64,000 bases of DNA, taken from Agarivorans aestuarii (GTDB taxonomy: Bacteria > Pseudomonadota > Gammaproteobacteria > Enterobacterales > Celerinatantimonadaceae). Every line of letters starts with the position of its first letter. The first letter of the stretch is position 1. Shown here one piece after another: positions 9,235 to 59,206 of this stretch. The stretch covers positions 3,807,501-3,871,500 of the forward strand of contig NZ_AP023033.1 in the NCBI RefSeq assembly GCF_019670125.1, in the 5' to 3' direction. The notes under the pieces were generated by a model. The model was given only the letters and a program-made list of their open reading frames with translations, had not been told where the DNA came from and searched no databases. The position numbers and the translations under genes were made by a program.

Positions 9235-9306
9235 CCATGGACTCACCACGCTAATAAGCTAGACGACAACTCAGAAACAAATTAACGACTTCACCAAACT
9301 GATCTA

Positions 9307-9346
9307 TCCGTAAGTATCTCGAGTAATTAATACAGAGACTTACGGA
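9307..9346. repeat. Long-spaced inverted repeat upstream of lipoprotein hydrolase
   Basis: TCCGTAAGT (9307-9315) and ACTTACGGA (9338-9346) are perfect complements with a 22-base spacer. Three further pairs (TCT/AGA) follow one mismatch. It ends 15 bases before the hydrolase ATG, so it may be an operator pair or a 5'-UTR hairpin. Confidence 0.5.
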
Positions 9347-9361
9347 GATGATGGTGAGAGC

Positions 9362-10750: not shown

Positions 10751-10810
10751 CCATGATTCTCTTGTGGGAAGAGCTTAGGGGGTCGACATATTCCTCAACC
10801 CCACTAAGGC

Positions 10811-11230: not shown

Positions 11231-11259
11231 TTTTCGTCCTTGTTATAGATCATTTAGGG

Positions 11260-12339: not shown

Positions 12340-12360
12340 GTACTACTTCCTAATGTTTTC

Positions 12361-14318: not shown

Positions 14319-14319
14319 A

Positions 14320-19469: not shown

Positions 19470-19885
19470 ATTCCCAACCTAGCCAATCGAGAGAGCAAAG
19501 CTTCTGGCGAGACAAAACACATTTCTTGATTGCTTAGATCGACCGCAACTTGAATGGTGTACCCTTTAGTCAATACCGCATTGGTGAGCTTATCTACAAT
19601 CCGGTACTCTATCTTTAAGCGATTCTCAAATTCTGTAAGCCCCGCTTCTACCACCAATACTTGTTCAAAAGTACTGGTTTTTACATATTTAAGACGTGTG
19701 TCGACAATAGGCCAAACGTAACCTGAAGCTTCCATCTCACGATAGCTATAACCAATTTTGTCCAACAGGGCACAACGTGCCTGCTCAAAGTACCTGAGGT
19801 AATTCCCATGCCAAGTCACCCCCATGGGGTCAGCATCATGAAACGGCACTGTTACTTCCACTTGGGCGTTGATTAACGCTTCCAC
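19460..19885 (-). CDS. apeK: ApeK-type hotdog thioesterase
   Basis: About 142 residues from the GTG at 19885, which shares its last base with the ammonia lyase stop codon. The frame opens at a GTG 18 bases upstream. This is a 4-hydroxybenzoyl-CoA-thioesterase-like hotdog protein: FHDADPMGVTWHGNYLRYFEQAR contains the catalytic Asp and the helix that covers the pantetheine tunnel. It may release or proofread acyl chains from the ACPs in the pigment pathway, as proposed for ApeK. Essentiality and substrate cannot be told from sequence. Confidence 0.88.
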   Translation of the reverse strand: MEALINAQVEVTVPFHDADPMGVTWHGNYLRYFEQARCALLDKIGYSYREMEASGYVWPIVDTRLKYVKTSTFEQVLVVEAGLTEFENRLKIEYRIVDKLTNAVLTKGYTIQVAVDLSNQEMCFVSPEALLSRLARLGICS

Positions 19886-21477
19886 TAGCAATACAACTCC
19901 CACTTACGTTGCTGTAACTGCTCAACAGTCTTGCGAAGTTCTGTTTCTAAAGGTCGATCTTCTTTTACCAAATTGAAGTCTTCCATTACTTGCTGGTAAT
20001 TGGCACGAACTTCATCGTTCAAACTTTCCAGATCCAGCTCACCTTGTTGCATGCGGATAGTGACAGCTTGGTGCACCGCCAACCAACCGGCTGCAATAAC
20101 TTGCTCTGTAAGTTCGAGTACTCGTAAGCAATCTCTTGCAGCAATGGTTCCCATACTGACTTTATCTTGATTATGACACTCGGTTGAACGTGAAAAAACA
20201 CTGGCAGGCATGGTTTGCTTGAGTGCCTCAGCTGTCCATGCAGAAGCGCCGATTTGTACCGCTTTAAAACCATGATTGATACAAGCCCGCTCTTTTGATG
20301 CAGCACTTAAATTTCTTGGTAGCCCACTGTTAAATTTCTCATCCATTAACAAGGCAAGCTGGCGGTCAGCTAGATCCGCCAAGTTAGCGACAGCATTCTT
20401 CATGCTGTCCATGGCAAAAGCTATGTGCCCACCATAAAAGTGGCCACCATGTAATACATGTTCACCATCGCCATCAATAATCGGGTTGTCATTGGCACTG
20501 TTTAGCTCAGTTTCTATAAACTGGCGCATAAAAGGCAGGGCATCCCTTAGCACACCAATAATGTGTGGAGCACAACGTATGGAGTAGCGGTCTTGCAGTC
20601 GCTCTGAGTTTCTAGGATGTTCATGATGATTTAAATCATTGCGGATCCATTCAGCCACTTGGTTTTGGCCCGGGTGAGGTTTAACCGCAAACAGTAGCTC
20701 ATCAAAGTGGTTAGAATTGCCTTTTAATGCTAGCGATGCCAGCGCGGTTATTCGACTAGAAACTTGGGTAAGGTACTCCGCCCGACGATAAGCCAAACAG
20801 GCAAGTCCCGTCATCACCGCAGTACCATTCATAATGGCTAAGCCTTCTTTCGGCCTTAAGCGAATCGCTTCTATACCCAGCTCGGCAAATACTTCATAGC
20901 TTGCTCGGCGCTGCCCCTTATAATAAACCTCTCGCTCTCCCATCAAGACAGCGGCGACATAAGATAGAGGAGTAAGATCGCCAGAGGCTCCCACAGAACC
21001 TTCCGAGGGAATGACAGGCATTATGTCGTGTTTCATCAACAATTCGAGTTGCTGCAACAAAGGATAGCTAACACCGGACTTAGCTAAGGAAAGAGAACTT
21101 AAACGGCTAGCCACCACTGCTCTAGCCTCATTAGGTTTTAACTCTTTCCCCATTCCACAGCCATGAAAACGGGTTAAATGCAGTGGCAGCTCTTCTACTA
21201 AATCCAGCGGAACAACAACGGTACAACTATCGCCATAACCAGTAGTTACGCCGTATATTGCACCATCTTCCTCAAGTAGGCGGTCTAAAAAATCAGCTCC
21301 CCGCTCTACTTTTGCGACATAGTCAGGACGAGTGTTTAAGCAAGCCAATTGCGGCCTTCTGCTCAACAGCTCTACTTGCTCTATAGTGATGGATTCTTGC
21401 CCAAACACCACTTTGGCATCAGAGTTTACTACTTGTTCAGCATGTTGCTGCGACGACGCGATATCAGCCTGAGTCAT
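19885..21477 (-). CDS. HAL/PAL/TAL-family aromatic amino acid ammonia lyase
   Basis: 530 residues, full length for the MIO-enzyme family. The MIO cofactor forms from Ala164-Ser165-Gly166 in GSVGASGDLTPLS, and the catalytic Tyr75 lies in YGVTTGYGDS. The substrate-selectivity pair aligns with Phe104-His105 (LTRFHGCGMG), unlike His-Leu (tyrosine), Phe-Leu (phenylalanine) or Ser-His (histidine) enzymes. The likely role is to make a cinnamate-type starter acid for the ApeH ligase. It sits between apeJ and apeK, overlapping apeJ by an ATGA, with AGGA before its start. It is unlikely to be HutH because no other hut gene is present. Confidence 0.9.
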   Translation of the reverse strand: MTQADIASSQQHAEQVVNSDAKVVFGQESITIEQVELLSRRPQLACLNTRPDYVAKVERGADFLDRLLEEDGAIYGVTTGYGDSCTVVVPLDLVEELPLHLTRFHGCGMGKELKPNEARAVVASRLSSLSLAKSGVSYPLLQQLELLMKHDIMPVIPSEGSVGASGDLTPLSYVAAVLMGEREVYYKGQRRASYEVFAELGIEAIRLRPKEGLAIMNGTAVMTGLACLAYRRAEYLTQVSSRITALASLALKGNSNHFDELLFAVKPHPGQNQVAEWIRNDLNHHEHPRNSERLQDRYSIRCAPHIIGVLRDALPFMRQFIETELNSANDNPIIDGDGEHVLHGGHFYGGHIAFAMDSMKNAVANLADLADRQLALLMDEKFNSGLPRNLSAASKERACINHGFKAVQIGASAWTAEALKQTMPASVFSRSTECHNQDKVSMGTIAARDCLRVLELTEQVIAAGWLAVHQAVTIRMQQGELDLESLNDEVRANYQQVMEDFNLVKEDRPLETELRKTVEQLQQRKWELYC

Positions 21478-23153
21478 CGAATTTGTCCTTTAGTCACTGT
21501 GTCCTTGGAATCTGGACACCAAAAATCAAAAAAATTAAACCATTGAAGGGGGTAACGTGCGGCAAGTGTTTCTAAGCGACTCGCATAAAGCTCACTAGCT
21601 TGCTCTATTCGCTGCTTGCGTTCTTTCCTGTTTGCCCCCAAATTATCACTCACTTTGTCAAAATACATATGGTAGCGACCACTTTGCTGTTGCATGCAAA
21701 ACAAACTAAATACTGGGCAGCACAACAGGGCAGCAATAATAAAGGGTCCCTGCGGGAAAGGTGCCAGCTCACCTAGAAACGAATGGTAATTCACTCTGCC
21801 GTAACTATCTGCCGGGGTTCTATCTGCAGCGATGGCTACTAGTTCACCATTCTCCACATATTCAGCTAAGCGGATACCAAGGTCTGGTGTGAACTCTGAA
21901 ATATGAATTAAATTCAGTTGAGAATCTGGATTAAGCTCTGAAAGAACCTTGTTAAATTTATTAGCATTCTCTGTAAGCACCACAACATTAATTCGAGTTC
22001 GATATTCAGTCTCAGCTAGGGCTCTGCACATTTCTATGTGACCTAAATGAGAAGTTAGTAATACCGCGCCCTGCCGGCTTTGTAATAGGTCTACCAAGAT
22101 ATCTTTATTTGGGAAATCGACTTCAGCTCGCGAGGCTTTTTGCGCCCAAGCGTCTAAACGATTTAAAGAGGCATTACCAAAACTTAAAAAGTGAGCAAAG
22201 CTATTTACCCAAGTAACTTTATCGCTCATCGCACTATCTTGATGCTTAGCCGCTTTTTGCAGAAATGCTTGTGAAGCATTACGAGTCGCCCTGCCACTCA
22301 CAAAAAAATATGCAATGGCTGGATACAACAATAATTTAGCGAGATAACGTCCACCCAACCGATAACCTTTAAGCGTTAGCTTTAGCCCCCATAAACTGCC
22401 CCTTTCTGCCATAGAGGACCAGTGAGCTTGTTTGCGTTTACGCCAAATAAGCCTAGGTAAACGAAATAACATGCCAAAAAACAACTTGGTATGCATCTTA
22501 CTAATCAGCCAGTTGTCTTCCCAAGCCTTAAAATGACTAAGCCCTTGTTCAGGGTAAATCACTTTAGTTGGCACTTGAATAATTGGTGTTGCTTGCCAGT
22601 AATGTCTCACAAGAACTTCAATATCAAAATCCATGCGTTTGCCTAGATTTACCGAGTTAAGTAGCTTAACTGTTGAATCAAGAGGATAAACTCTAAAGCC
22701 ACACATACTGTCTTGCAGCTCTAGGCTTAAAGTTTCTATCCATACCCATACATGAGTGATATATCTGGCGTAGTAACGTGCTTTAGGCACAGAGGCATCA
22801 TACTCAGGCACTCCCGTAACCAACGCAAACGGGCTTGACTTAGCTAAGTCTAAAAATCGATTTATGTCTGCCAAGTTATGCTGGCCATCGGCATCTATTT
22901 GTAAAGCATGGCTGTAACCCAGCCCAGCAGCTTGACGCAAGCCAGTCATAACCGCTCCACCTTTACCTTGGTTCTGCTCATGCCTAAACAATTGAACATG
23001 TTCATATTGATTAGCTAATTGAGATAAGTAATCTGCAACGCTTGCATCGCTATAATCATCAACTAAAACAATAGGCAAAGAGATACTAGCGATTGTTTCC
23101 GCAATTGCATTGGTGTGGTTGTAGTTTGGGATAACCACACAGGGCTTAAACAT
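21474..23153 (-). CDS. apeJ: ApeJ-type bifunctional glycosyltransferase/acyltransferase
   Basis: About 559 residues from the ATG at 23153. An N-terminal GT2 domain (~1-230) has VIPNYNHTNAIAETI, VLVDDYSDA and the metal-binding LQIDADGQHN. A central hydrophobic stretch near residue 275 (LLYPAIAYFFVSG) links to a C-terminal LpxL/HtrB-like acyltransferase (~300-540) with the SHLGHIEMCRAL H-x4-E motif and an ADRTPADSYG segment. This fused architecture is characteristic of aryl polyene clusters. It probably attaches sugar and acyl chain to the lipid anchor of the pigment. It overlaps apeI by eight bases and the ammonia lyase by four. Confidence 0.9.
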   Translation of the reverse strand: MFKPCVVIPNYNHTNAIAETIASISLPIVLVDDYSDASVADYLSQLANQYEHVQLFRHEQNQGKGGAVMTGLRQAAGLGYSHALQIDADGQHNLADINRFLDLAKSSPFALVTGVPEYDASVPKARYYARYITHVWVWIETLSLELQDSMCGFRVYPLDSTVKLLNSVNLGKRMDFDIEVLVRHYWQATPIIQVPTKVIYPEQGLSHFKAWEDNWLISKMHTKLFFGMLFRLPRLIWRKRKQAHWSSMAERGSLWGLKLTLKGYRLGGRYLAKLLLYPAIAYFFVSGRATRNASQAFLQKAAKHQDSAMSDKVTWVNSFAHFLSFGNASLNRLDAWAQKASRAEVDFPNKDILVDLLQSRQGAVLLTSHLGHIEMCRALAETEYRTRINVVVLTENANKFNKVLSELNPDSQLNLIHISEFTPDLGIRLAEYVENGELVAIAADRTPADSYGRVNYHSFLGELAPFPQGPFIIAALLCCPVFSLFCMQQQSGRYHMYFDKVSDNLGANRKERKQRIEQASELYASRLETLAARYPLQWFNFFDFWCPDSKDTVTKGQIR

Positions 23154-23505
23154 CAACAGCCCCTAGAACTACTCTTCCACTGCTATACTTGTTGTCTTCA
23201 TCAAAGTAGTTAAAGTAAAGTTTACTTTTCTTTTCATCAAAACGAAGAGACAGTTGAATGCTGCGTTCTGGTTGCATTACATGTTGATATTTCAGCACTT
23301 CTAAGGCAGAAACTTCATTACTAACACCCAAGTAACTTGCAGCGAACTCAACAGCCCAGTGAAGTTGAGCCACGCCAGGAACAACAGGCAGATTGGGGAA
23401 ATGACCTTGTAAACAAGGTAGCTCAGAAGCAATATTCAAGCTTAAGGTAAAAGTGCCATTGGTTTGCTGAACAAGTTCAACACCCGGCCTACCAAAGTCC
23501 TTCAT
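23146..23505 (-). CDS. apeI: ApeI-type hotdog dehydratase
   Basis: 119 residues, one hotdog domain with FPNLPVVPGVAQLHWAVEFA, a FabZ-like segment in which the usual HFPxxPVxPG catalytic region is recognisable (QGHFPNLPVVPG). It should work with ApeP in dehydrating 3-hydroxyacyl-ACP intermediates. It overlaps apeH by four bases and apeJ by eight, fitting a single polycistronic unit. It is shorter than a housekeeping FabZ and lacks its N-terminal helix. Confidence 0.88.
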   Translation of the reverse strand: MKDFGRPGVELVQQTNGTFTLSLNIASELPCLQGHFPNLPVVPGVAQLHWAVEFAASYLGVSNEVSALEVLKYQHVMQPERSIQLSLRFDEKKSKLYFNYFDEDNKYSSGRVVLGAVDV

Positions 23506-24836
23506 GTAAACAACGACCTCATTTTTGCTAGTTGACGCTTACCTTGTGAATTAACCATCAAACTGTCTATATAACGCCACTTTCTAGGCAGTGTCACCGT
23601 CTCAAAATAATCAGCTAAATACATACGTAGTGTTTTGTTCACCGCGTGTCTGCTCGCCTTTAATTGCTTTAAACCACAGTTGTTTAGAACAACAACAGCT
23701 GCAATACAATCGCGAGAAGAAGATAGTGTTAGTAAATCACACTCTCTTACCCATTGGTGTTTTTCCAAGAGTCGAGACATCTGATCCAAACAAACACGCT
23801 TTTCAGCAATTTTAACAATTCGGTCTAAGCGCCCTAAGAGCTTAAACCCATCGCCACTTTCTTCAACCGCATCATCCATCTCATACCATCGTTCTAGATC
23901 AACTAAGTATGGAGATCTAATTTGCAAAGCATTGTTTGCAGATATTCGCCATTTAATACACTGAAATACCGACCAGTGTTGTTGAATGAGCTGATTTCTA
24001 TAGGCTACCCCCCCTGTTTCACTGGAACCAAAAACTTCGGTGGGCGCTAGCTGCCATTGTTGAGCAAGCAACTTAACCGTCTCATCTTTTAGAGCACCAC
24101 CGGAACTGAAACAGTATTTCGGGCGGTTTTCTAATGGCGCTATTTGACGACTTAAGTGTTCTAAAAAAGAAGGGCTTGATACAAAGCTAATGCTTTCTTT
24201 TACTGCAAAACGGTAGTCTTCGATATATTTAATCGGGCGGACTTGCCATACTCGTTGTGAAAGCAAAGGCCAGAGAACAGTAAATAGTAAGCCGTAAATA
24301 TGTTGATGGGAAACGCTGCCACAAATGGTGGTTTTATCTACGTCTTCGCCAAAGCAGCTTTCCAGTGTTTCGACCTCAGCTTGCAATTGTCGCCATTTTT
24401 TTACCACTCGTTTGGGTTCGCCAGTACTTCCCGAGGTATACAAAAATACCTCTTGTTCAGAGCCTACATCTCTATAGATATCTTTATAATCTTTTGTTTC
24501 AGATAGGCTTTTATAGTCGGTATACACATCTGGTTCATGCTGGCCTACATTTCTGTCTGCACATACCGCATCGAGCTTTTGCGCGAAATGCTTAAGAGTT
24601 TCAACTTGAAGATTTGGCGGTAGTACTGGTGTTTTACCGGCCAGTAATAAGGCAAAAAAGCAACAAGAAAAATCAAAGCTGTCATCAGCAAACAATAACC
24701 AATGTTGATAAGGAAAGGCTTCTATTTGTTTATACTTACCGTAAACCTGTTCCCACCAATCCTGATTCGAGAGTTCAGTATCGCGGATTGCGGTGGTGTA
24801 AGTGATAGAAAGAGGTGGGAGGCTAATCTTATTCAT
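23502..24836 (-). CDS. apeH: ApeH-type acyl-ACP ligase (AMP-dependent synthetase)
   Basis: 444 residues, shorter than acyl-CoA synthetases (~550) as expected for ApeH. The AMP-binding P-loop is LYTSGSTGEPKRVVK near residue 135, the adenine motif lies in FGSSETGGVAYR near 280, and the C-terminal lid begins after LLGRLDRIVKIAEKRV. It likely activates the aromatic starter acid, from the ammonia lyase or chorismate, and loads it on an ACP. It overlaps apeG by eight bases. Many plus-strand frames over this gene are shadows. Confidence 0.9.
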   Translation of the reverse strand: MNKISLPPLSITYTTAIRDTELSNQDWWEQVYGKYKQIEAFPYQHWLLFADDSFDFSCCFFALLLAGKTPVLPPNLQVETLKHFAQKLDAVCADRNVGQHEPDVYTDYKSLSETKDYKDIYRDVGSEQEVFLYTSGSTGEPKRVVKKWRQLQAEVETLESCFGEDVDKTTICGSVSHQHIYGLLFTVLWPLLSQRVWQVRPIKYIEDYRFAVKESISFVSSPSFLEHLSRQIAPLENRPKYCFSSGGALKDETVKLLAQQWQLAPTEVFGSSETGGVAYRNQLIQQHWSVFQCIKWRISANNALQIRSPYLVDLERWYEMDDAVEESGDGFKLLGRLDRIVKIAEKRVCLDQMSRLLEKHQWVRECDLLTLSSSRDCIAAVVVLNNCGLKQLKASRHAVNKTLRMYLADYFETVTLPRKWRYIDSLMVNSQGKRQLAKMRSLFT

Positions 24837-25398
24837 TGTATTGTTCTAGTTTCGAAAGCTTTCTATAAAGCCACTCTCCAGTTAACAAACAGCCCATCAA
24901 AACGTAACTAATGAATCCGTTGTATAAAGTCCATGCCTCGATACTGCCCATGAAAATAGTCCAAGCACTCACCGTGGCATTTAACATAAAAAATGCCATC
25001 CAAAGTTTGGTGAGTTTCATGAAATAAGGCCTAGCCGCAGCTGGAATGTTTTTTCTTCCAAGTCGGGCAAACTTTTCAATCATTGGCTGCTCACTGCGAA
25101 GACTAACAGCAAACACTGCCAACAAAACTAAATTAACCAGTAAAGGGTATAGCTTAAACCAAGTTTGCTCTTTTGATAAAAGCGCAACAGCTATGAGAAC
25201 GATACCCACCATAGCTAACACCTTTTGTTGTTGAAACACTCCTTTAGACCGCCATGTCAGCAGTAGCCTTAAACAAAAAGCACCGAGCAACAACCCGCCA
25301 ATCATTTGGAAGGAGTATAAGCTTAAGCCAAAATAAACAATCAGAGGGTAAACCGCTAATGCGATAATAACCAAGGCTCTAACAATGCGACTTACCAT
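24829..25398 (-). CDS. apeG: ApeG-type integral membrane protein (COG4648-like)
   Basis: 189 residues with five to six hydrophobic helices and basic loops, ending in a polar tail (RKLSKLEQYNE). It corresponds in position and length to the small membrane protein ApeG between the ACPs and ApeH in described clusters. The function is unknown. It may anchor the soluble synthases at the membrane or act in lipid handling. It begins six bases after apeF. Confidence 0.82.
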   Translation of the reverse strand: MVSRIVRALVIIALAVYPLIVYFGLSLYSFQMIGGLLLGAFCLRLLLTWRSKGVFQQQKVLAMVGIVLIAVALLSKEQTWFKLYPLLVNLVLLAVFAVSLRSEQPMIEKFARLGRKNIPAAARPYFMKLTKLWMAFFMLNATVSAWTIFMGSIEAWTLYNGFISYVLMGCLLTGEWLYRKLSKLEQYNE

Positions 25399-25404
25399 CA
25401 GTTT

Positions 25405-25656
25405 TTAAGCAGCATTACTAACTAACTGCTCTAAAGCGTCAATGACATCAGCCACTGTTCTAGCAGACTTAAACTCATTCGGTTGTATTTTCTTACCAGT
25501 TAGTTGCTGCAGTTTCACAACTAAGTCGACTGCATCAATACTATCCAAATCTAAATCTTGATAAAGGTTAGCTTCCAAAGAAATATCTTCCTCAGCTACC
25601 TCAAACTCGCTGGTCAAGATGTCTTGTAGCGCTTGATAAATTTGTTCTCTATTCAT
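25405..25656 (-). CDS. apeF: ApeF-type acyl carrier protein
   Basis: 83 residues, acidic and helical, with the 4'-phosphopantetheine site LDLDSIDAVDL (Ser39). It is one of two ACPs in tandem that carry starter and growing chain. It begins six bases after apeE ends. Activation should need the Sfp-type transferase encoded just upstream of the cluster. Confidence 0.93.
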   Translation of the reverse strand: MNREQIYQALQDILTSEFEVAEEDISLEANLYQDLDLDSIDAVDLVVKLQQLTGKKIQPNEFKSARTVADVIDALEQLVSNAA

Positions 25657-25662
25657 AGTAAC

Positions 25663-25926
25663 TTACGCCGCTTTTTTTTCTTGTTCAATAAACTCAGCCA
25701 GAGCCTTTACACTGGAAAAGTGTCTTTTTGTATCTTCAGAGTTGGCATCCAATTTAATTTGGTACTTTTTCTTTATCGCTAGTCCAAGTTCTAATGCATC
25801 TATTGAATCTAAGCCTAAACCCTCTACAAATAGAGGTTCATCGGTTTCAATATCAGAGATCTCAACATCTTCTAGTTCTAGTGCTTCAATAATAAGTTGT
25901 TTAAGTTCCTGCTCTAATAAATTCAT
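25663..25926 (-). CDS. apeE: ApeE-type acyl carrier protein
   Basis: 87 residues, acidic, with the phosphopantetheine site LGLDSIDALEL (Ser41). The C-terminal helix ends in a Lys-rich EQEKKAA. The two ACPs share little sequence outside the DSIDA core, consistent with distinct partners. Its ATG overlaps the apeD stop by four bases. Confidence 0.93.
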   Translation of the reverse strand: MNLLEQELKQLIIEALELEDVEISDIETDEPLFVEGLGLDSIDALELGLAIKKKYQIKLDANSEDTKRHFSSVKALAEFIEQEKKAA

Positions 25927-26693
25927 TGGCAGTTAAGTTCCTTGTAAAAGTGTTGCTGTAAATATCTAGTTAACGCTCTTGCTTTCCGTGAATCACTGTT
26001 TTCGTCTTCACAAACATCTTGGGCGAAAATCGTATCCCCTATATCCAACGAGAAATGCGGTTTTTGTGCCGGTATTGAGTACCAAGGCTCTGACTTAGTT
26101 AAAGTAGTAGGTGACACACGAATCGTCACAGGTAAGAAATCAACGGCACAGCGCAACGCTATATTTGCCGCACCTCGTTGCATATTTAGGTCTTCACCTG
26201 GGGTAGTTCGAGTCCCTTCGGGAAAAATAATAAGACTTGCCCCCTTGGCGAAGCTACGTTGACAAGCACTTAAAACTAGTTCGGGCTCGGCTCCATTTTT
26301 AATGTAGCCCGCTGCAGAGATAATCATCGACATACATGGATTTCTCCACAAGCTTTGCTTAACAATACAACTAGTCTCTGGTAAATGGGCAATTAACAAC
26401 ACTACGTCGATAAGCGATGGGTGATTAGCAATCACCAGCTTCCCAGCAGAGTGCTTTAGCTTCTCTCTGTTTGAAACCGAAACACTAAGTACTCCCAAAA
26501 GTTGCATCATTTTTACAAATGACTTAAAAATGAAATGCACGACGAGTTGATTACGAGCTGTTTTATCTTTTGAAGGCAAGATGTACAACAGCGGAAATAA
26601 GGTAATAGAGAATAAAACGCCCAAAGCACCAAAGCTGAAGAATGAAAAAGCAGTCATTACTAAACGCCAATAATACCCCACTTGCTTACTCAT
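25923..26693 (-). CDS. apeD: ApeD-type lysophospholipid acyltransferase
   Basis: 256 residues. It is a PlsC-fold acyltransferase: hydrophobic N-terminal helices (~10-40), the catalytic motif ANHPSLIDVV with His near residue 90, then the FPEGTRT substrate motif near 160 and a PVTIRVSPT block. It probably transfers an acyl group in building the lipid to which the polyene is attached. It overlaps apeC by eight bases at its start. Phospholipid remodelling is an alternative role. Confidence 0.9.
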   Translation of the reverse strand: MSKQVGYYWRLVMTAFSFFSFGALGVLFSITLFPLLYILPSKDKTARNQLVVHFIFKSFVKMMQLLGVLSVSVSNREKLKHSAGKLVIANHPSLIDVVLLIAHLPETSCIVKQSLWRNPCMSMIISAAGYIKNGAEPELVLSACQRSFAKGASLIIFPEGTRTTPGEDLNMQRGAANIALRCAVDFLPVTIRVSPTTLTKSEPWYSIPAQKPHFSLDIGDTIFAQDVCEDENSDSRKARALTRYLQQHFYKELNCQ

Positions 26694-27369
26694 CCTTCAA
26701 ATCCCAAATCCACTTTTGAGCTTCTAACTCTAACTCAAAGTAATCTTCTGATTTAGATAGTGCAGCTATAAGCTGACTAGCTAAATGCCTAGGTGATTTT
26801 AACGAGCTATTGTCATCCGCAATTAACTTAGCATGCCAGCCAAATTCAGCAGCGGAGAGGATACAAGCAAACGCCGCAAGCTCTTCTTGCTCGTCAGCGT
26901 ACGCTTTATAAATTTCGGGTAAAGGCTCATCGACATAAACCAACAAAACCTTTTCTTGGTAGCAAATTGATTGACTAATAGCTTCAACAAAAGCCATTGC
27001 TAGAGAATTTCGTCCACTAGTGACTACCGTCGATGGCGCAGTATTCTTCTGGTTGATCGAATACAACCCGCTTGAAGTATTATAAACAGACTGACTAAAT
27101 TTAGCGGGGGACAGGGGTGAGCCTTGAGTTAGCTCTAATAGTAAATCTAAAGTGCGGTGAAGCTCACCATGGCGAGAAGAAAAAACGCTTCGAATCGCTC
27201 GGGGATTTGGAAGTATGTCTAAAATAACCCTCAATGCCATTTTACTTAAAAAACTAAAGCGTCTTCTTTGCATAGGGGGGATTTCAGGTAACTGGGGGGT
27301 AGCTGCTACACCATCGTTAATAGTGGAATTCCAACTAGTCCAATTTTCAATTTTAAAAACAGCGTCCAT
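26686..27369 (-). CDS. apeC: ApeC-type ketosynthase-like chain length factor
   Basis: 227 residues, only about half a ketosynthase. It matches the short beta-ketoacyl-synthase N-terminal family used as chain length factor partner of ApeO. Where a ketosynthase would have its Cys nucleophile, the aligned segment TVVTSGRNSLAMAF has none, so it should be non-catalytic. It is the first gene of the operon, and the 23-bp inverted repeat at 27403-27425 lies 34 bases before its ATG. No other coding sequence lies between it and the phosphopantetheinyl transferase gene. Confidence 0.88.
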   Translation of the reverse strand: MDAVFKIENWTSWNSTINDGVAATPQLPEIPPMQRRRFSFLSKMALRVILDILPNPRAIRSVFSSRHGELHRTLDLLLELTQGSPLSPAKFSQSVYNTSSGLYSINQKNTAPSTVVTSGRNSLAMAFVEAISQSICYQEKVLLVYVDEPLPEIYKAYADEQEELAAFACILSAAEFGWHAKLIADDNSSLKSPRHLASQLIAALSKSEDYFELELEAQKWIWDLKDE

Positions 27370-27402
27370 ACTACAACTTAAAAAATAAAATTAACGACAA
27401 CG

Positions 27403-27425
27403 TTAAGTCACTCCATGTGACTTAA
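27403..27425. promoter_or_regulatory. Perfect inverted repeat upstream of apeC
   Basis: TTAAGTCAC, five bases, then GTGACTTAA. This 9-bp perfect dyad ends 34 bases before the first APE gene in an AT-rich 151-base gap. It looks like a transcription-factor operator. A 5'-UTR hairpin is the alternative. Confidence 0.6.
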
Positions 27426-27520
27426 TATTTACAACTTTTACTTCAATTATAACCAGTCTAATTATTTCGATTAATTGTATCGTTTAAGCCATAAAAAAGC
27501 ACTAAGTTTGGATGAAAACC

Positions 27521-28036
27521 TTAGACGTGAGCGATGGTTAAAGCATAACCTATTGGAGCTATTGAGTTTTTCAACATAAGTCCCTTATATACTCTCTGTT
27601 TACAGCAAACCACCGGTAAAGACTTCATATCGGATGGTGTTTGACAGGAGAACACCTTCCAAGCTGCTTCTTTTCTTGTCCACCATTGGTAAAACTCAGC
27701 TAAACTTGTCGGCTCAATAGGTTCTATAGAATGGCGTATTTCGAGCCACATTTCAGCATATGGCCGAGGTTTAATTCTTTCAATATCTATTCCACAAGGC
27801 ACAAGGCAAGCCATAGCAGCAACATACTCACCACTATGACTTAAACTTAAATAAGCCTTTTCGTTTATTTCTTTATCAATAAAAGGCTGCCCGAATTTAT
27901 TTCTTTTAATACTTCCATAAGAAATAGACTCATCAAGTAACAAACTCGCACAGTCAGCCAAGCTCTGATTACAAAATTGTTTAAACTCAATACGCGTTAA
28001 ATCATTAGGCACTTCGCTAATGATTACTTCATTCAT
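27521..28036 (-). CDS. Sfp/AcpT-type 4'-phosphopantetheinyl transferase
   Basis: About 171 residues from the ATG at 28036. A TTG two codons earlier is also open. Diagnostic motifs are LSLSHSGEYVAAM, GIDIE around residue 80 (Mg-binding Asp and Glu) and WTRKEAAWK near 125. It moves phosphopantetheine from CoA to the serine of carrier proteins, so it should activate ApeE and ApeF. It is separated from apeC by 151 bases, so it may be transcribed independently or as the head of the same unit. It is shorter than Sfp (~220 residues), as in the AcpT-like group. Confidence 0.9.
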   Translation of the reverse strand: MNEVIISEVPNDLTRIEFKQFCNQSLADCASLLLDESISYGSIKRNKFGQPFIDKEINEKAYLSLSHSGEYVAAMACLVPCGIDIERIKPRPYAEMWLEIRHSIEPIEPTSLAEFYQWWTRKEAAWKVFSCQTPSDMKSLPVVCCKQRVYKGLMLKNSIAPIGYALTIAHV

Positions 28037-28115
28037 AGTCAAAATAATATTTTTGCATTAACAATTGGCATATATATATACCCACCAAGAAACACTCGCG
28101 TAACAATTATAAAAA

Positions 28116-52359: not shown

Positions 52360-52624
52360 GGGCGGCGGAGTATTCCACAACTTATTGCTAACTGCAATAG
52401 CTAAACGATTAGTCAAGAAATCCTGCGTTTTTGATTTTTTTGGTGATAACTAACAGTTTTTGAGCAAACACACCTATCAAGGCTTCGCTCACTGTCAGTT
52501 CTTAGTTAAACTGAGCCATTACCCTGCCCGCGCTCAAACCCACGATTGGTTTGTTCTCTCATCGTGGCAGCAGCACTTGCTACAGCAGTGAGTGCTAAGT
52601 TTAGCTAATTTAAAAGGAAGCACT

Positions 52625-55600
52625 TTGTCTGGCTTATTGCGGATCATCTTGATCGATACTCACCTTAAAGGTGTGGTAGAACTTAAACTCGACCAACACA
52701 GCAATATATGTGGTACTAACGCTTCAGGTAAAACCACATTACAGCGTCTTATTCCGGTGTTTTATGGCGAATATCCCAGCCGCGTAGTGCCAAGTACCCG
52801 CGATAGTTTCGAGCGTTGGTATCTGCCACGAGAAGCCAGCTACATCATTTATGAGTACCAGCAATATAACGGTCAAGTTGCCCAAGTGGTGTTGTCTTCT
52901 GGTCGCGAAGACCAGGGGGTTAAGTATCGCTTTATCGGCAAGCCTTTTGAGCTAAGCGATTTTGTGGATAAACAAGATGAACAAGGTACCTGGTTTTTGG
53001 CTCCCGCTAAACTGGGCCAAAAACTTAAAAAGCAAGAGTTCAACGGCGCTGCCCTAGCCACTACCCGCTTTCTTAATACCAGAGAATTTCGTGCAATTAT
53101 TCAAAACGATCGCAGCTTACAAAATGCCGGCGACAGCGATTTGAAAGCTTTTGCTCGCCAGTTTTCTATGTGCGATCCAAAGCATGGCCTGCGCCACATT
53201 GAAAAATTGGCCAAAGCAGTGCACTCCAAAGAAGGCAAAATGGAAACCATCAAATCGATGATTGCCGCCATTTTGGAAGAAGAAGGCGTTACCTTAAAAC
53301 CAACTTGGGTAGATGCCAATAAAGCGCAAGCGTGGATCCAAGAAACCCGTTTAATCCAGCAGTTCGAAGCGATTCGCCCTAAGTTCGTAAAACTAGAGCA
53401 AATCAACCAACAACTGCTTGGCAGCGAAGCTCAGTTAAACCAGCTAGATAAAAACCTACAAGGCGATGAAGCGGAGCTATTTTCCCAAAGTGAACATAGC
53501 CAACGCCAGCTTAACCAATTAAAACAACAGTTAAGCGAACTAGAGCAAGAGTGGCAGAATCAACGCGAACAGCTTAACCAAGCTGTCTCTAGTGCCAATG
53601 CCGATGTTTCTAGTTTCGACAAGCAACTTAACCACATCGAAGACGATTACCAAGCTTGGCAAGATAAAAATATCGAGCAAGCACTTAGCGGGGTTGAGCA
53701 GCTACCACTTTGGCGTGAGCAAGTGCGAGAAGTTAGCGAACGCCACCAGCTGCTCACCGAGCAACACAGCGATATAGAAGCTCACTTCAACCAACGCAAG
53801 AGCGAAATCAACGAGCAGCTAAACTCGGCATTAAACAAACTGCATAAAAACAAAGATCAGCTGCAGCAACAGCTCAACCAAGAGAAACAACAGCAACAAG
53901 CTGAGCTAAATAACGAACAACAGCAGCAACAAAAGCAAATTAACCAAGTTGAGCAAAGCTTCCAACAACAGCAGCATAAAAATCAGCTAGAACTGGCGCA
54001 GCTAGAGGCCGGCACCCTGCAAATGGGCTATACCGAAGAAGAAAGCCGCCAGCTTAATATCATGGATAATCGTCTCGACGAGGCCAACCAGCAGCAACAG
54101 TTGTTATCTGCGCAAGTACGCCAACACAACGAACAATTGCACAGCCTAAAGCAGCAGCGCCAACAAGCCGACCAAATCTTAGCCAACGCCAGCCAACAAT
54201 CTCGCCAGCTAGAACAAAAGCTAAGTGGGCTAAAAGACAGCTTGCAACCGGCCGATGGCAGCCTACTGGCGCACTTACGTAGCGAGCACCCACAGTGGGA
54301 GCAAAGCATTGGTAAGTTAATTAATCCTGAGCTGCTCAATCGTCGTGATTTAAAACCTCATAGCGAAACCAACCATCAAAGCGTATTTGGTTTAGCCTTA
54401 GATTTAAAAGCCATCGATGCCCCAGAATGTGCGGCTACCGAAGAGCAAATCAAACAGCATATTGAGCAAATTCAGCAAAGCGTTAACGAGGCGCAGAAAC
54501 AGCTTAAACAAGCCGAACTTGACTTAAGTGACGCCAACAAAGCCGTGCAGCAGCAAGATTTGTCAGTTGCCGAAGCTACAGCGGCTCACCACAACAGTGA
54601 AGATCAACTCAAACGTCTACAAGAAGAAAAACAGCTACTCAAAGAAAGCTTTTCTAGCGCACTTAAACAGCGCCAAAGCGTGGGACTAGAAAAACAAACT
54701 AAGCTGAAAACCTATTTAGACAATGCGCAAACACAGCATCAAGAATACCTAGACGAGTTACGCGAACAACACCAAGAAGCCAAGCTAGAAAAAATGGCCT
54801 GGTGGGAAGAAAAGATTGATGCGCTAGCCTTGCAACTAAGCCAAGCTCAAGACGCTATTAGCAATCGCCAAAAACAAGCGAAAGAAGCGCTAAAACAGTC
54901 GGAACAATGGTATCGCGGCGAGCTGCAGGCACAGGGCTTAGATGACCAGCTAATTGTTGATTTAGCCAAGCAAAAACGCCAACTTAATCAACAAATTCAA
55001 GACGCCGAGCAGTACCGTGATGAAGTAAGCGAATACAAAATTTGGCATCAACAAGTGTGGCTAAACCAAAAACCACAGCTTAACGATGCCCTTGCCAATG
55101 CTCGCCAAGCACAAAGTAGTGCTAAGCAAGCCCTTAACGAGCAACTGGCTCACTTCAAACAGCAGCGAGATAGCCAACAAGCTGAGCTAAGCAAGCTTAA
55201 GCAAGTGCTAGAACAGCTACAGCAACAATATAGCCAAACTCAAAACCTGTTGCGAAAAATCAAACAATTGGCTTTACCCAAACAAAACCAAGCAGACCAA
55301 ACAGCAGAAGCTGCCGGTACACCCGCCGAGCGAGCCCGCCAAGCCGAGCAGCAAATTGTGCAGCGTAACCAGCAGCTTGAGCAAGTTAATGAATCAGTTC
55401 GCCATTTTGATAGCTTATTAGCGCAACAAGCTGGCTCAGACTTAAGCGAAACTTGGGAGCGTTCGCGTGCCGCATGCCGGCGCACCAACGAAGAAGGAGA
55501 AAGCACCCTCGCCTACCGTGAGTTAGTGCCACACCTATCTGAACTGTTAAACGGTTTAGTGCCGCAAAAAGTACAAGGCCTAATCGACCACGGTCGCAAC

Positions 55601-56344
55601 CTAGGCATGAGCATTAGCAGCTTCTACCAAAACTTAAGCGACATTGACCAACGAATTTTGAGCCAAAGCCGCCGTATTACCCGCGAAATTGGTGAAGACT
55701 TAAGCCTAGATGGCGTATCTGATTCAGCAGTAAAAATTCGCTCTAAGATTAGCGAACTAGAGTTTTGGGACGAACTAAAAGCCTTTGTAGATAACTTCCA
55801 AGCTTGGCAGCAGCAAGGCTTTAATCAATTGCCCGACGAAGACTACGCCACCAGCATGCGGGTAGCCCTAGATATTATTGGTCGCAGCGCACTTAAAGAA
55901 GGGGTATCTCGGTTATTGCTGATTGAGCTAACCCTGCGCGAGGGCAATAGCGACCTAGTGATCCGCACCGATCGCCAGCTTAATGAATCCAGTAGCCACG
56001 GCATGGCCTACTTGATTTTGTGTAAGTTCTTATTGGCCTTTACCCGCTTATTGCGTGGCAATGCCGATACTTACATTCACTGGCCAATTGATGAATTAGG
56101 CACCTTGCACCAAAGCAACGTGAAGAAGATCTTTGATGCCTGTGACCATAACCAAATTCGCATACTGGGGGCTTTTCCTAACCCAGAATCTGAAGTATTG
56201 GACTTGTTCACCCACCGCTACATCATTAACCGTGACAAGCGCCAACTGCAAGTTGTGCAGCCGCGAATTAATCCTTTACAAGAAAAGCTAAAAGCAGCCC
56301 AAGCGGCCAAAGCCAGTACTAAACAAGCGGAGGCTGAGCTATGA
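52625..56344 (+). CDS. MukB/JetC-like SMC ATPase (Wadjet-like operon, gene 1)
   Basis: 1239 residues from a TTG at 52625, preceded by AGGAAG at good spacing. A GTG 33 bases upstream is open but has no ribosome site. The head begins with Walker A GTNASGKTT at residues 30-38. A very long Gln-rich coiled coil follows (~260-1000), with a hinge-like globular region in the middle (QADGSLLAHLRSEHPQWEQ). The C-terminal head holds an SMC-like signature (LNESSSHGMAYL) and the Walker B Asp-Glu at 1156-1157 in WPIDELGT. This is the JetC/MksB architecture: an ATP-driven loop-extruding motor. It should form a complex with the next three proteins. Confidence 0.9.
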   Translation: MSGLLRIILIDTHLKGVVELKLDQHSNICGTNASGKTTLQRLIPVFYGEYPSRVVPSTRDSFERWYLPREASYIIYEYQQYNGQVAQVVLSSGREDQGVKYRFIGKPFELSDFVDKQDEQGTWFLAPAKLGQKLKKQEFNGAALATTRFLNTREFRAIIQNDRSLQNAGDSDLKAFARQFSMCDPKHGLRHIEKLAKAVHSKEGKMETIKSMIAAILEEEGVTLKPTWVDANKAQAWIQETRLIQQFEAIRPKFVKLEQINQQLLGSEAQLNQLDKNLQGDEAELFSQSEHSQRQLNQLKQQLSELEQEWQNQREQLNQAVSSANADVSSFDKQLNHIEDDYQAWQDKNIEQALSGVEQLPLWREQVREVSERHQLLTEQHSDIEAHFNQRKSEINEQLNSALNKLHKNKDQLQQQLNQEKQQQQAELNNEQQQQQKQINQVEQSFQQQQHKNQLELAQLEAGTLQMGYTEEESRQLNIMDNRLDEANQQQQLLSAQVRQHNEQLHSLKQQRQQADQILANASQQSRQLEQKLSGLKDSLQPADGSLLAHLRSEHPQWEQSIGKLINPELLNRRDLKPHSETNHQSVFGLALDLKAIDAPECAATEEQIKQHIEQIQQSVNEAQKQLKQAELDLSDANKAVQQQDLSVAEATAAHHNSEDQLKRLQEEKQLLKESFSSALKQRQSVGLEKQTKLKTYLDNAQTQHQEYLDELREQHQEAKLEKMAWWEEKIDALALQLSQAQDAISNRQKQAKEALKQSEQWYRGELQAQGLDDQLIVDLAKQKRQLNQQIQDAEQYRDEVSEYKIWHQQVWLNQKPQLNDALANARQAQSSAKQALNEQLAHFKQQRDSQQAELSKLKQVLEQLQQQYSQTQNLLRKIKQLALPKQNQADQTAEAAGTPAERARQAEQQIVQRNQQLEQVNESVRHFDSLLAQQAGSDLSETWERSRAACRRTNEEGESTLAYRELVPHLSELLNGLVPQKVQGLIDHGRNLGMSISSFYQNLSDIDQRILSQSRRITREIGEDLSLDGVSDSAVKIRSKISELEFWDELKAFVDNFQAWQQQGFNQLPDEDYATSMRVALDIIGRSALKEGVSRLLLIELTLREGNSDLVIRTDRQLNESSSHGMAYLILCKFLLAFTRLLRGNADTYIHWPIDELGTLHQSNVKKIFDACDHNQIRILGAFPNPESEVLDLFTHRYIINRDKRQLQVVQPRINPLQEKLKAAQAAKASTKQAEAEL

Positions 56345-57000
56345 GTAAGTTAAGCGCCACCGGCATGAGCGAAACCGGGCGGATTTTAGAAGCCCTGTTA
56401 AGTGGCCAATTTATCTGCCAAGTGAGTGACGAAGATGGTTTTCACTATTTAGCCGAAGAAGCTAACCGCGAGCGCATCGACAGCCACTTACATGTGCTTA
56501 ATCGTCGCCTTGCCAGTGCTTGTGAAGGCGAACTGTATTTTTGCGCCTATCGCGAGCTAGGTGACAATGAACACAAAGTGATAAGCCAGCAATTTAGCGA
56601 AATAGCAGGTAGCTTACTGCCGCTCACCGAGTGGTTAATTCTCAGCCAAGAAGCACAAGGCCAAGATAGCCCTATTAGTGCCGGAGTGGCGCTGCGTTTA
56701 AGCGAGTTGCAAACCGTGGTGGAAGACACCCCAGCGCTGCGTGAACAACTGGCAAAAATATCTCAATACAAGTTGTTTGGCTCAACCAGTAGCCAAGTAG
56801 ATGGCCAACTTAAGCAAGTGTTTAAGCGCCTATGTGAACAAGGCTATTTAGTTCGACCAAACCAAGAAAAACAGATCTATATTGCCACAGCTAAAGTGGA
56901 TTACATTTTTGAAGTCATTAGCTTTATTGATGAAGCCGAAGGTCTAGGCTTAGAACAACAAGCCATGGATGCCATTGGCCAGCAGGAGCCCTTACTGTGA
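56341..57000 (+). CDS. MukE/JetB/MksE-like subunit (gene 2)
   Basis: 219 residues, soluble. Its ATG overlaps the SMC stop (ATGA), so expression is coupled. The N-terminal third and the C-terminal third have the look of tandem winged helices, e.g. SETGRILEALLSGQFICQ and QLKQVFKRLCEQGYLVRPNQEKQIYIA, as in MukE and JetB. Sequence identity with characterised members is low, so the assignment rests on size, fold pattern and operon position. It should bridge kleisin and DNA. Confidence 0.75.
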   Translation: MSKLSATGMSETGRILEALLSGQFICQVSDEDGFHYLAEEANRERIDSHLHVLNRRLASACEGELYFCAYRELGDNEHKVISQQFSEIAGSLLPLTEWLILSQEAQGQDSPISAGVALRLSELQTVVEDTPALREQLAKISQYKLFGSTSSQVDGQLKQVFKRLCEQGYLVRPNQEKQIYIATAKVDYIFEVISFIDEAEGLGLEQQAMDAIGQQEPLL

Positions 57001-58211
57001 ACCAACATTTGCAACAAGCTGGCTTAAAGCTATTTAAGCTGCTTGCGCGTCATGGCGAAAGCCTGATGCATGCTTACGTTAACGGCAAGCTAGATGAAAG
57101 TAAGCTAGACAGTAAACAGATTGATGCTTTACTCAAAGCTGGCGTTATTTGGCGTCCATCAGCCGACGAAGGTTTGCATTTAAGTTCTAACCTGCGCTCA
57201 TTATTGGAAGAAGCCTTAAGTGATACAAGAAATCGGCAAATTGATTCTAATGTTGGCTCGCGCTTAGAAACTATTAGAACCTTGGCAGCACACTACAAAG
57301 AAGCCTTACATATTGGCGATTTAGCCGCTGCCGACGTTTACCTCAGCGATTTAAGCGAACACAGCTACAGCCTCACCGAAAGCCTGCGCCATAGCTCGCG
57401 GGTATTGTGGAGCCGAATCAACAATGAGTTTGGTTATGTGCCCAGCTTAAGCGCCAAAATTCGTGAAAATGAACTAGCTCAGCAGCAAGTAAGCGAACTG
57501 CTCAATAGCCTTGCCTTATTAAACTTTGATACTTTGAGCCAAATAGCTGGCGATATTCGCGAGCTTCGCCGGATCTTGGTGTTGAACCTAAGCCAAGCGG
57601 TTTACGACTGCACCCAAGAGCTAGCAGTTGTGCAAACACGCCTACTCACCTTACTCGGCCGTTTTCGCGAGTTACGTGGTAAGTCTCGCCTGCTTAAAGG
57701 TTTGCAGCTATTTCATGCTCAGCATCCCGACTTCAGCCCGAAAGACCCAACGCAACAACTCGATGTAGCAAGCTTATTTAACCAAGCACCTGCACTGCTA
57801 TCCAAGGCCAGTGTTGATATTCACAATAGCGAACATGAACACGACTTATTGCTATCGCTTAGCCAGCTCAAATTGCAACGTCACACTAAAGTTAGTGAAA
57901 CCGACACCGAACATGCGGTTTCTCTAGAAGGCGCCGAAGAGTTTGCCCTGCAAGAGCAAAAGATTAAACAAGATGTAGAGAACTACCTGTTGGGCGTAAT
58001 AGAAAGTGCTGCGGGCCAAACGGCCTTAGAGTACTATCAAGAACAGCACTTGGAATGGGATGCCGAAGCTTGGTTATACCAAGTATGGGGCAGCTACCAT
58101 GCTCTGCCAGAAGAACAGCGTGACTACTTTGCGCTAGACCCCATTGAAGACCCACACCCAATCTTTAGCGGCAATCGGATTGTTCGCGATTTACAGGTAT
58201 GGTTACGTTAA
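56997..58211 (+). CDS. MukF/JetA/MksF-like kleisin subunit (gene 3)
   Basis: 404 residues starting at a GTG that overlaps the previous stop (GTGA). An N-terminal winged-helix part (~1-75: LKLFKLLARHGESLMHAYVNG, LLKAGVIWRP) is followed by a helical mid-section (~85-250) and a C-terminal part ending in NRIVRDLQVWLR. This is the MukF/JetA arrangement in which the ends contact the two SMC heads. No catalytic motif. The C-terminal winged helix is not easy to see, so the family assignment is moderate. Confidence 0.72.
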   Translation: MNQHLQQAGLKLFKLLARHGESLMHAYVNGKLDESKLDSKQIDALLKAGVIWRPSADEGLHLSSNLRSLLEEALSDTRNRQIDSNVGSRLETIRTLAAHYKEALHIGDLAAADVYLSDLSEHSYSLTESLRHSSRVLWSRINNEFGYVPSLSAKIRENELAQQQVSELLNSLALLNFDTLSQIAGDIRELRRILVLNLSQAVYDCTQELAVVQTRLLTLLGRFRELRGKSRLLKGLQLFHAQHPDFSPKDPTQQLDVASLFNQAPALLSKASVDIHNSEHEHDLLLSLSQLKLQRHTKVSETDTEHAVSLEGAEEFALQEQKIKQDVENYLLGVIESAAGQTALEYYQEQHLEWDAEAWLYQVWGSYHALPEEQRDYFALDPIEDPHPIFSGNRIVRDLQVWLR

Positions 58212-59086
58212 TGAGGCTTAATAAAGTCCAATGTAATTTGCTACAAAAAGCCTACCACAGTAACGTAGCGAGTATTAACCTTGGCAAAAAAGGAACAATA
58301 AGCAGCAACTGGAAAACTATTATAAACGCTTTAGATCTTAGTGACTGGGTTTACCAAAACAGTCTAAATTTAGATTTTGCCAAACGAGAAGAATTATACC
58401 AGTTATCTAAGGATATTCTGGGGTTAGACTTAAATCTAGACTTACATAGCAGTGACCGAAAGCTTGCAAGCCAAAAAGCTGGTGATGATAAGTTAGCAGG
58501 TATTAAACCAAATGATAACTTCTTGCTAAGCAAGCAACTGCACCATGGCAGTGCTCCAAGCTTATTATTTTACTCTAGCGACCAATTAGCCACCCGATGT
58601 CCAATAGACTCGCTAAACCTAAGCCTGTTAGATGCAGTAATCGTGGTTGAAAACTTGCTAGCATTTGATGCAATTGAACAGTTCAAACTACCCACTCTAC
58701 CTAGCAATACTCTAGTTGTGTATCGCGGCGATGCTCAGCACTCACCAAAAGCCGTAAAAACACTTATAAACAAACTACCCAGCTCTGTGATGCTAATAGC
58801 GTTTACAGATTTCGATCCTGCTGGCTTTTTGATCGCAATTAACACAGGGCACCAAATACATGCCCTAATGCCTAAGTTATCTCCTGAGTTAATCAAACAA
58901 GCTAGCTCAGCGGCAAAGAGAGCTGATTTTATAAAGCAATATAAACAAACTGAGGCATTAGATAAAAATAACGAGCAACTAGGTGGCTGGTTAAAACATT
59001 GGAACGAGAACAAAAAAATAGCCACTAGTATTAGCCAAGAACTCATGCTCAATCAAAATGCCAAATTAGAGCTAGTTGCTCTATAA
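58211..59086 (+). CDS. Compact TOPRIM protein, JetD/MksG-like (gene 4)
   Basis: 291 residues from the ATG at 58211, which shares its first base with the previous stop (TAATG). An ATG 12 bases upstream is possible. The C-terminal half is a TOPRIM fold: the catalytic Glu is in VIVVENLLAF (Glu147), and the metal-binding pair is in FTDFDPAGFL (Asp200 and Asp202). JetD proteins use this centre to cleave circular DNA. The usual length is about 390-400 residues, so the N-terminal DNA-binding arm is short here. No other TOPRIM protein in the window resembles it. Confidence 0.8.
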   Translation: MRLNKVQCNLLQKAYHSNVASINLGKKGTISSNWKTIINALDLSDWVYQNSLNLDFAKREELYQLSKDILGLDLNLDLHSSDRKLASQKAGDDKLAGIKPNDNFLLSKQLHHGSAPSLLFYSSDQLATRCPIDSLNLSLLDAVIVVENLLAFDAIEQFKLPTLPSNTLVVYRGDAQHSPKAVKTLINKLPSSVMLIAFTDFDPAGFLIAINTGHQIHALMPKLSPELIKQASSAAKRADFIKQYKQTEALDKNNEQLGGWLKHWNENKKIATSISQELMLNQNAKLELVAL

Positions 59087-59206
59087 TACACGGCCGCCTA
59101 TATTTAATTACAAGCACTTACGTTTAAGATACAGAAATATTTGACTGACTAATTCATTATTTTAGAATATGCCAAATGTTGGGCCGGGACGCATTAGAGA
59201 GTAGAT

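Follow-up and report, generated by a model that had tools for sequence, protein, structure and literature searches.

Among the bacterial complexes built around structural maintenance of chromosomes (SMC) proteins, Wadjet, MksBEF(G) and MukBEF are the closest described counterparts of the system treated here. An excerpt of PMC10586767 states that the relationship of these three is not settled and suggests a defence complex as the source of the chromosomal ones; an excerpt of PMC10123090 describes the gene order mksFEBG as conserved. We analysed a stretch of 64,000 nucleotides from Agarivorans aestuarii (contig NZ_AP023033.1, positions 3,807,501 to 3,871,500; hereafter the window). At 52592-59086 it holds four open reading frames (ORFs), all on the + strand and overlapping their neighbours, which encode an SMC ATPase, a KITE-type subunit, a probable kleisin and a TOPRIM nuclease subunit. 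We suggest, with a probability of roughly 0.6, that the first three (the trio) form an SMC-KITE-kleisin loop extruder of a class of its own (DUF3584, motor gene first), to which the TOPRIM protein is a detachable nuclease subunit. This reading is carried by gene content and order, by the active-site residues of TOPRIM, by its absence or decay in relatives and by purifying selection on TOPRIM-less trios; loop extrusion, cutting of circles and plasmid restriction would be the functions of this complex by analogy. Near-identical trios that have or lack the nuclease occupy one and the same chromosomal site, both forms are under purifying selection, and this bears on the relationship between defence and chromosomal SMC complexes.

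The operon and its subunits

The genes and the stretch that follows them are:

52625..56344, + strand: SMC ATPase, 1239 amino acids (Pfam DUF3584, 1041 bits, full length)
56341..57000, + strand: KITE-type subunit (MksE-like), 219 amino acids (Pfam MksE, 27.4 bits, cut-off 27)
56997..58211, + strand: probable kleisin, 404 amino acids (place, size and weak MukF fold match)
58211..59086, + strand: TOPRIM nuclease subunit (JetD/MksG-like), optional gene, 291 amino acids (Pfam DUF7281, 122.9 bits)
59087..59206, no strand: intergenic stretch; right edge of the extra DNA at about 59095, then collinear with TOPRIM-less congeners

In its longest form the SMC ORF starts at 52592 and encodes 1250 amino acids. 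The TTG at 52625, aligned with the relatives' start and preceded by AAAGGAAG, gives 1239. For TOPRIM, alignment favours ATG 58211 over an in-frame ATG at 58199 within the kleisin gene. An earlier note on this DNA, made from the sequence alone, had read overlaps of 1-4 bases between the genes, and all three junctions are present: ATGA at 56341-56344 (SMC/KITE), GTGA at 56997-57000 (KITE/kleisin) and TAATG at 58209-58213 (kleisin/TOPRIM). Its 1239-residue SMC with Walker A at 30-38 and Walker B at D1156 E1157 holds with the TTG start, and the Walker A residues G30 T31 N32 G35 K36 T37 as well as both Walker B residues are invariant in 9/9 aligned SMCs. The gene order, given there as C-B-A-D, recurs in 8/8 TOPRIM-bearing relatives. 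Housekeeping surroundings without a visible island were likewise claimed correctly; the flanking genes tested encode a Vut_1 transporter (upstream) and a MaoC-domain protein (downstream). Altogether, the observation was confirmed and the family reading is mostly right. What did not stand is the picture of an isolated anti-plasmid cassette, because the trio is conserved in position in whole genera.

The roles proposed for the SMC, the MukE-like KITE and the TOPRIM protein are supported by family, profile or fold. The window's KITE barely passes the Pfam MksE cut-off and its relative in L014 scores 34 bits; the KITE of L017 has no Pfam MksE match, and profile comparison gave no significant link between the KITE profile and MukE or JetB. 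The position of the gene is kept in 8/8 relatives. The third protein has no match worth naming in Pfam, PADLOC or NCBIfam. The two best Foldseek matches of its predicted model (predicted local distance difference test, pLDDT, 78.6; predicted TM-score, pTM, 0.40) both come from MukBEF entries, with chain lengths of 440 and 431 residues that point to MukF, and MukF(1-287) is next among the matches. Position, size and this weak fold match make it a probable kleisin. The earlier description of the protein as MukF-like is upheld to that extent and lacks confirmation by profiles: KITE falls within Pfam MksE, just, and the third protein is linked to no kleisin profile.

The TOPRIM profile, built from 39 sequences, reaches topoisomerase VI-A (E 0.0023), SPO11 (0.005) and MksG (0.031) among solved structures. 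In a Foldseek search with its confident predicted model (pLDDT 92), two topoisomerase VI-A chains and MksG were the three matches at E <= 0.001, with low TM-scores (0.23-0.39). E147, D200 and D202 (Glu and Asp-x-Asp) are invariant in 39/39 aligned sequences. Ahead of residue 171, a position that already belongs to the TOPRIM part, the same alignment has no invariant tyrosine. The excerpt of PMC10586767 describes JetD as being without a catalytic tyrosine in its N-terminal domain; the Wadjet/MksBEFG nuclease and the TOPRIM protein here thus both have the acidic residues of topoisomerase VI-A and neither has an N-terminal catalytic tyrosine. In the window the TOPRIM gene is present and open throughout.

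Distribution of the trio and of its TOPRIM gene

With the window's TOPRIM as bait, hits were obtained in 9/40 genomes, its own included, and the order SMC-KITE-kleisin-TOPRIM is found in 8/8 of the others. Since genes, order and strand are all the same in these eight relatives, the four-gene set is not a product of chance. A scan of genome contigs with the SMC alignment yielded at least 327 relatives, of which the best 80 loci were kept; the trio order is seen in 78 of these best 80. The apparent order SMC-kleisin-KITE in L078 and L079 and an odd KITE ORF in L077 are probably artefacts of ORFs called too long in high-GC sequence. Together with the eight first relatives, eight congeners or family members and the window, 97 loci were analysed (two genomes are represented twice), and 97/97 contain SMC, KITE and kleisin.

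For whole-genome counts, KITE was taken as the marker of the trio. It is present in 7/7 genomes of the window's genus, in 120/394 of its order and in 22/398 of its phylum, and it is single-copy in 119 of the 120 genomes of the order. A view of the operon as sporadic (TOPRIM in 1/7 genomes of the genus) was dropped once the KITE profile gave 7/7. In 13 of the 120 KITE genomes, from the families labelled f3, f21 and f13, the matches are distant (E 1e-35 to 1e-45) and may represent another complex. The eight f3 genomes, with a distant KITE, contain neither ScpB nor MukE, and a TOPRIM match occurs in 2/8, one of them weak.

The chromosomal site of the trio is well conserved. The same downstream neighbour is found in 32/35 Shewanella loci, with and without TOPRIM, and in 9/9 Alteromonas loci. 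In the window's genus, six congeners carry a TOPRIM-less trio that is 83-99.5% identical to the window's and has the same site and neighbours, and only the window's genome has TOPRIM (1/7). The gap between kleisin and the MaoC gene is 156-201 bp in the six congeners versus 995 in the window; the upstream transporter adjoins the trio in five of the six congener stretches, the sixth (L161) ending there. Two plasmids carry the four genes too, with their order unchanged: one from Rhodoferax and a conjugative one from Vibrio campbellii, in which SMC and kleisin are each split in two ORFs. A further record with all four genes in this order is that of Dolichospermum phage Dfl-JY45 (209 kb; L205, 5962-12338); the operon there may help the phage against competitors or stem from the assembly. 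Viral contigs scanned with the SMC alignment gave 241 pattern matches and no relative among them.

TOPRIM is distributed much less evenly. Its profile matches 75/394 genomes of the order, 69 of them within the 120 KITE genomes and six others weak (E 3e-9 to 5e-4); in 51/120 KITE genomes the profile search found no match. By family, TOPRIM accompanies KITE in 22/24 genomes of f11, 18/32 of f6, 8/9 of f16, 5/11 of f2, 4/12 of f1, 4/4 of f21, 2/8 of f3, 2/3 of f20, 2/2 of f15, 1/1 of f13 and, as fragments only, 1/14 of f7. Adjacency to the trio was checked in the fetched loci, and the matches in G257, G479, G514 and G531 are shortened or partial. Two f6 genomes have a TOPRIM of 220-222 amino acids with the N-terminal domain missing (L210, 6469-7131; L211, 5847-6515), the matches of which start at about residue 80 of other TOPRIMs.

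Within the 97 loci, which include the best 80 of at least 327 relatives, 42 carry a complete TOPRIM and 55 none, counting among the latter L078, where the contig stops 368 bases past kleisin and absence is unsure. Traces of the gene can still be recognized in two loci. In L163, the sister of TOPRIM-bearing L010, 27 amino acids are left that are 96% identical to the C-terminus of the L010 TOPRIM (E 4e-14); in L206 the first 70 and the last 59 amino acids are matched and the middle is gone. The trio is intact in both. Minus-strand tblastn matches to TOPRIM in L072 and L093 (E about 0.02) were discarded as chance. On a quick 95-row trio tree, which has long branches and does not tell gain from loss, the TOPRIM state changes at least 13 times, and well-supported branches alone require 11 of these changes. 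In 500 label shuffles the number was never as low as the observed 13 (mean 31.1), so the presence of TOPRIM is clustered and yet often changing.

Other condensins of the hosts were followed by profiles. ScpB is present in 80/119 KITE genomes tested; the 39 without it comprise f11 (24/24), f3 (8/8), f21 (4/4) and one genome each of f1, f2 and f16. MukE was found in 4/106 KITE genomes tested, all of f21, and in 7/13 tested genomes without KITE; the window's genome has no match to its profile. Ordinary SMC and ScpB are present in the window's genome, and the trio is therefore a second condensin there. Family f11 is different: SMC above the cut-off was found in 0/11 genomes, ScpB in 0/24 and MukE in 0/22, in a search that did not extend to other Mks/Wadjet complexes, and by these profile counts the trio may be its only condensin. 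Two f11 loci have housekeeping-looking genes, about 5 kb of them, between kleisin and an intact TOPRIM (L230 of G256, 6582-11232; L231 of G347, 6732-11919), and in a third (L232 of G186) a single ORF of 155 amino acids lies between the two.

Selection, origin of the TOPRIM gene and alternatives

Ratios of nonsynonymous to synonymous substitution rates (dN/dS) were calculated by NG86 for 18 hand-picked close TOPRIM-less pairs, of which 16 were measurable for SMC and 15 each for KITE and kleisin, the rest being saturated. Leaving aside the pair L078/L079, to which we return below, dN/dS is 0.012-0.053 for SMC (15 pairs), 0-0.032 for KITE (14) and 0.008-0.034 for kleisin (14). Trios with TOPRIM have similar values (0.003-0.075 in nine pairs, where measurable). 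Such strong purifying selection on TOPRIM-less trios implies that the motor has a job to do without the nuclease. Low dN/dS and a fixed downstream neighbour mark the trio as a resident machine that is being maintained, not a wreck. TOPRIM itself is under purifying selection (0.063-0.140 in seven measured pairs), with dN/dS above that of every trio gene in 6/7 pairs.

A careful tree of 39 TOPRIMs echoes the groups Oceanospirillaceae, Halomonadaceae, Pseudomonadaceae and most Shewanella of the trio tree and pairs the window with L010 (support 98/90). Discord is seen for L052 and L060, which are paired by TOPRIM (93/91) and stand apart in the trio tree. As far as a comparison of main groups can tell, TOPRIM appears to travel mostly with its trio. 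Between the window and L010, TOPRIM identity is 33.1% at a kleisin identity of 62.6%. This equals the mean of 52 pairs with kleisin identities of 60-70% (33.1, sd 4.2), and TOPRIM is thus probably a long-standing member of the operon that evolves faster than the trio.

How the window came to possess the gene can be considered in the light of its congeners. L157, L159, L160 and, partly, L161 have a homologous short spacer at the site of the window's TOPRIM, which suggests that the TOPRIM-less form is ancestral in that congener group; blastn segments between the window and these four restart at 59095 or 59096. A hairpin in the congeners' spacer was not listed by the terminator scan, in which sites were no more numerous than in shuffled sequence. 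Per 300 bp, the window's trio and that of L157 differ by 0-4% from 53.2 to 58.2 kb, and the flanks by 4-20%. With L160 the difference is smaller in the upstream flank (2-7%) and larger in the trio (5-18%). This mosaic of an L157-like trio and an L160-like upstream flank points to recombination at the locus. We slightly favour the explanation that recombination with a TOPRIM-bearing relative outside the sample re-armed the window's operon; the alternative is that TOPRIM was retained here and lost several times elsewhere. A close donor was not found, the best identity being about 33%, and a search of plasmids gave four weak records. The low G+C of the gene at third codon positions (GC3 35.6% versus 45.9% in kleisin) was considered as a mark of recent foreign origin and rejected: TOPRIM is below its own kleisin in 37/39 loci, and low GC3 is therefore a habit of this gene. 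The mean difference between TOPRIM and kleisin over the 39 loci is -6.8 (sd 4.5), that of the window -10.3.

The mechanism we propose would work as follows. Kleisin and KITE would bridge an SMC dimer, and the complex would extrude loops of DNA. Once a small circle is reeled in whole, TOPRIM would become activated and cut it, as in Wadjet/MksBEFG. Where TOPRIM is absent, the same extruder might serve the chromosome, as MukBEF does. A single gene would then decide whether a resident condensin doubles as a plasmid cutter. Both the motor role without nuclease and this one-gene switch are open to experiment, because trios with and without TOPRIM share a site. A bolder version is possible, if doubtful: that this is an unnamed SMC-TOPRIM class in which a resident condensin is armed and disarmed by gain and loss of its nuclease, in both directions (L163 and L206 showing decay, the window's species a re-arming through recombination), and in which the presumed plasmid cutter of f11 is also the only condensin detected.

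Several points weigh against a detachable nuclease on a resident extruder. The third protein has no Foldseek match at E <= 0.001, and its matches, with TM-scores of 0.13-0.36, are rivalled in score by unrelated helical proteins; profile comparison gives no significant link between the kleisin profile and MukF or JetA. In the TOPRIM-less pair L078/L079, where ORF ends are unsure, dN/dS is not low (SMC 0.19, KITE 0.13, kleisin 0.50). A chromosomal role of the trio in the window's genus may be redundant with SMC and ScpB. TOPRIM could be an accessory that is lost by drift and not a switchable arm. Family f11 keeps it in 22/24 genomes with no other condensin found, and it could there be part of the chromosomal function. 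This last thought leads to a different explanation: a condensin of the chromosome in which TOPRIM is an integral subunit with a task on the chromosome itself (untangling, repair or the trimming of loops) and not on plasmids, defence being secondary or absent. The f11 counts speak for it, as do the integrity of TOPRIM in the two f11 genomes where about 5 kb separate it from kleisin and the purifying selection on the gene. We nevertheless consider it unlikely, for TOPRIM has no match in 51/120 KITE genomes, outpaces the trio in 6/7 pairs as an arms race would predict, is carried by plasmids and a phage record, and has no invariant tyrosine ahead of the TOPRIM domain.

At the other extreme, the operon might be an ordinary, divergent defence system of Wadjet type, the TOPRIM-less loci being switched off and on their way out. 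Four subunits of Wadjet kinds, the distant kinship of the SMC head to JetC1 and of TOPRIM to JetD1, the presence of all four genes in two plasmids and a phage record, and the frequent gain or loss of TOPRIM would all fit. A system on its way out would hardly be expected to show, with one exception among the measured TOPRIM-less pairs, dN/dS values of about 0.01-0.05, to keep whole ORFs at a fixed site, or to retain SMC, KITE and kleisin in 97/97 loci and be non-sporadic in the genus; we regard this explanation as quite improbable. An ordinary MksBEF(G) in another gene order, covered by a broad MksBEF concept, would account for a KITE that barely passes Pfam MksE and scores 34 bits in L014. It conflicts with the mksFEBG order described as conserved in the excerpt of PMC10123090 and with L017, whose KITE is without an MksE match, and it too seems unlikely. 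The detachable nuclease on a resident extruder remains our preferred reading.

Elsewhere in the window, a run of minus-strand genes extends over 11260-28042. Among the products tested, seven show domains of the kinds O-methyltransferase, ketoacyl synthase, MMPL, aromatic amino acid lyase, glycosyltransferase/acyltransferase and AMP-binding, or none, and the run resembles an aryl-polyene-type cluster. Two convergent family 16 glycosyl hydrolase genes at 2416-4008 and 4083-6134 fit a polysaccharide-degrading bacterium.

Comparison with described SMC systems

The PADLOC models cover Wadjet types I-III, and one type I locus (L044) and one type II locus (L039) served as controls, also for gene order. 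On the window's proteins the Wadjet models score 5.3 (JetC2), 18 (JetB1) and 17.5 bits (JetD1), and the third protein matches none of them; on ten proteins of three relatives they score at most 25 bits. The best models in the two controls reach 328-1818 bits, and both controls have the order A-B-C-D, that is, kleisin-KITE-SMC-TOPRIM. With scores this weak beside strong controls, and with a different gene order, the system lies outside the PADLOC Wadjet types. The divergence from known types claimed in the earlier note is therefore real, and no prior classing as a named Wadjet type emerged among the type I-III models. Annotation of defence systems is not expected to detect the system, because these models match it too weakly. 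In the opposite direction, our own profiles gave a best E of 4.9e-3 on nine loci from a JetC2 search and eight MukBEF loci. We found no paper on this SMC-first family, including under DUF3584 and DUF7281, in a literature coverage that leaves out the original MksBEF paper. The class thus appears as an unnamed, SMC-first, Wadjet/Mks-like one in the libraries searched, and an earlier mention under the MksBEF name may exist.

Wadjet type I and MksBEFG share with it an SMC, a KITE, probably a kleisin, a TOPRIM of the topoisomerase VI-A/MksG type with the acidic residues, and an SMC head akin to that of JetC1 (pairwise profile comparison, probability 85%, single-pair E 5.8e-6). TOPRIM and JetD1 are linked at 42% (E 2.6e-4, again for a single pair and not a library). 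Type I differs in that here the motor gene comes first, PADLOC type I models score no more than 18 bits, KITE and kleisin have no profile link to JetB1 and JetA1, the trio is resident and TOPRIM is optional; TOPRIM is also smaller, with 291 amino acids versus 375 and 394 in two JetD1. With type II the system shares the logic of four subunits, and PADLOC labels JetC2 a 'DUF3584 domain'. The type II control is, however, ordered A-B-C-D and scores 435-1408 bits, whereas the window's SMC has 5.3 bits against JetC2. Moreover, the SMC of L039 has no Pfam DUF3584 match, whereas that of the window is a DUF3584 protein. PADLOC describes both JetC1 and JetC2 by that label, and the control JetC1 and JetC2 are both without a Pfam DUF3584 match; the label seems to be misapplied.

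MukBEF, an SMC, kleisin and KITE without nuclease, resembles the TOPRIM-less trios, and MukF is among the best fold matches of the third subunit. Its order is F-E-B in eight MukBEF loci, in contrast to SMC-KITE-kleisin here, and the window's proteins do not match the Pfam MukB, MukF and MukE families, while control MukF and MukB match theirs. MksBEF of the Pseudomonas type is approached by KITE, which just passes Pfam MksE, and both coexist with SMC-ScpAB. The order of MksBEFG, in the excerpt of PMC10123090, is F-E-B(-G); here it is B-E-F(-G). Finally, a sporadic distribution would be expected of Wadjet/MksBEFG as a functional kind; here the trio is not sporadic, being present in 7/7 genomes of the genus and at fixed sites in Shewanella and Alteromonas, and it is the TOPRIM gene that is sporadic.

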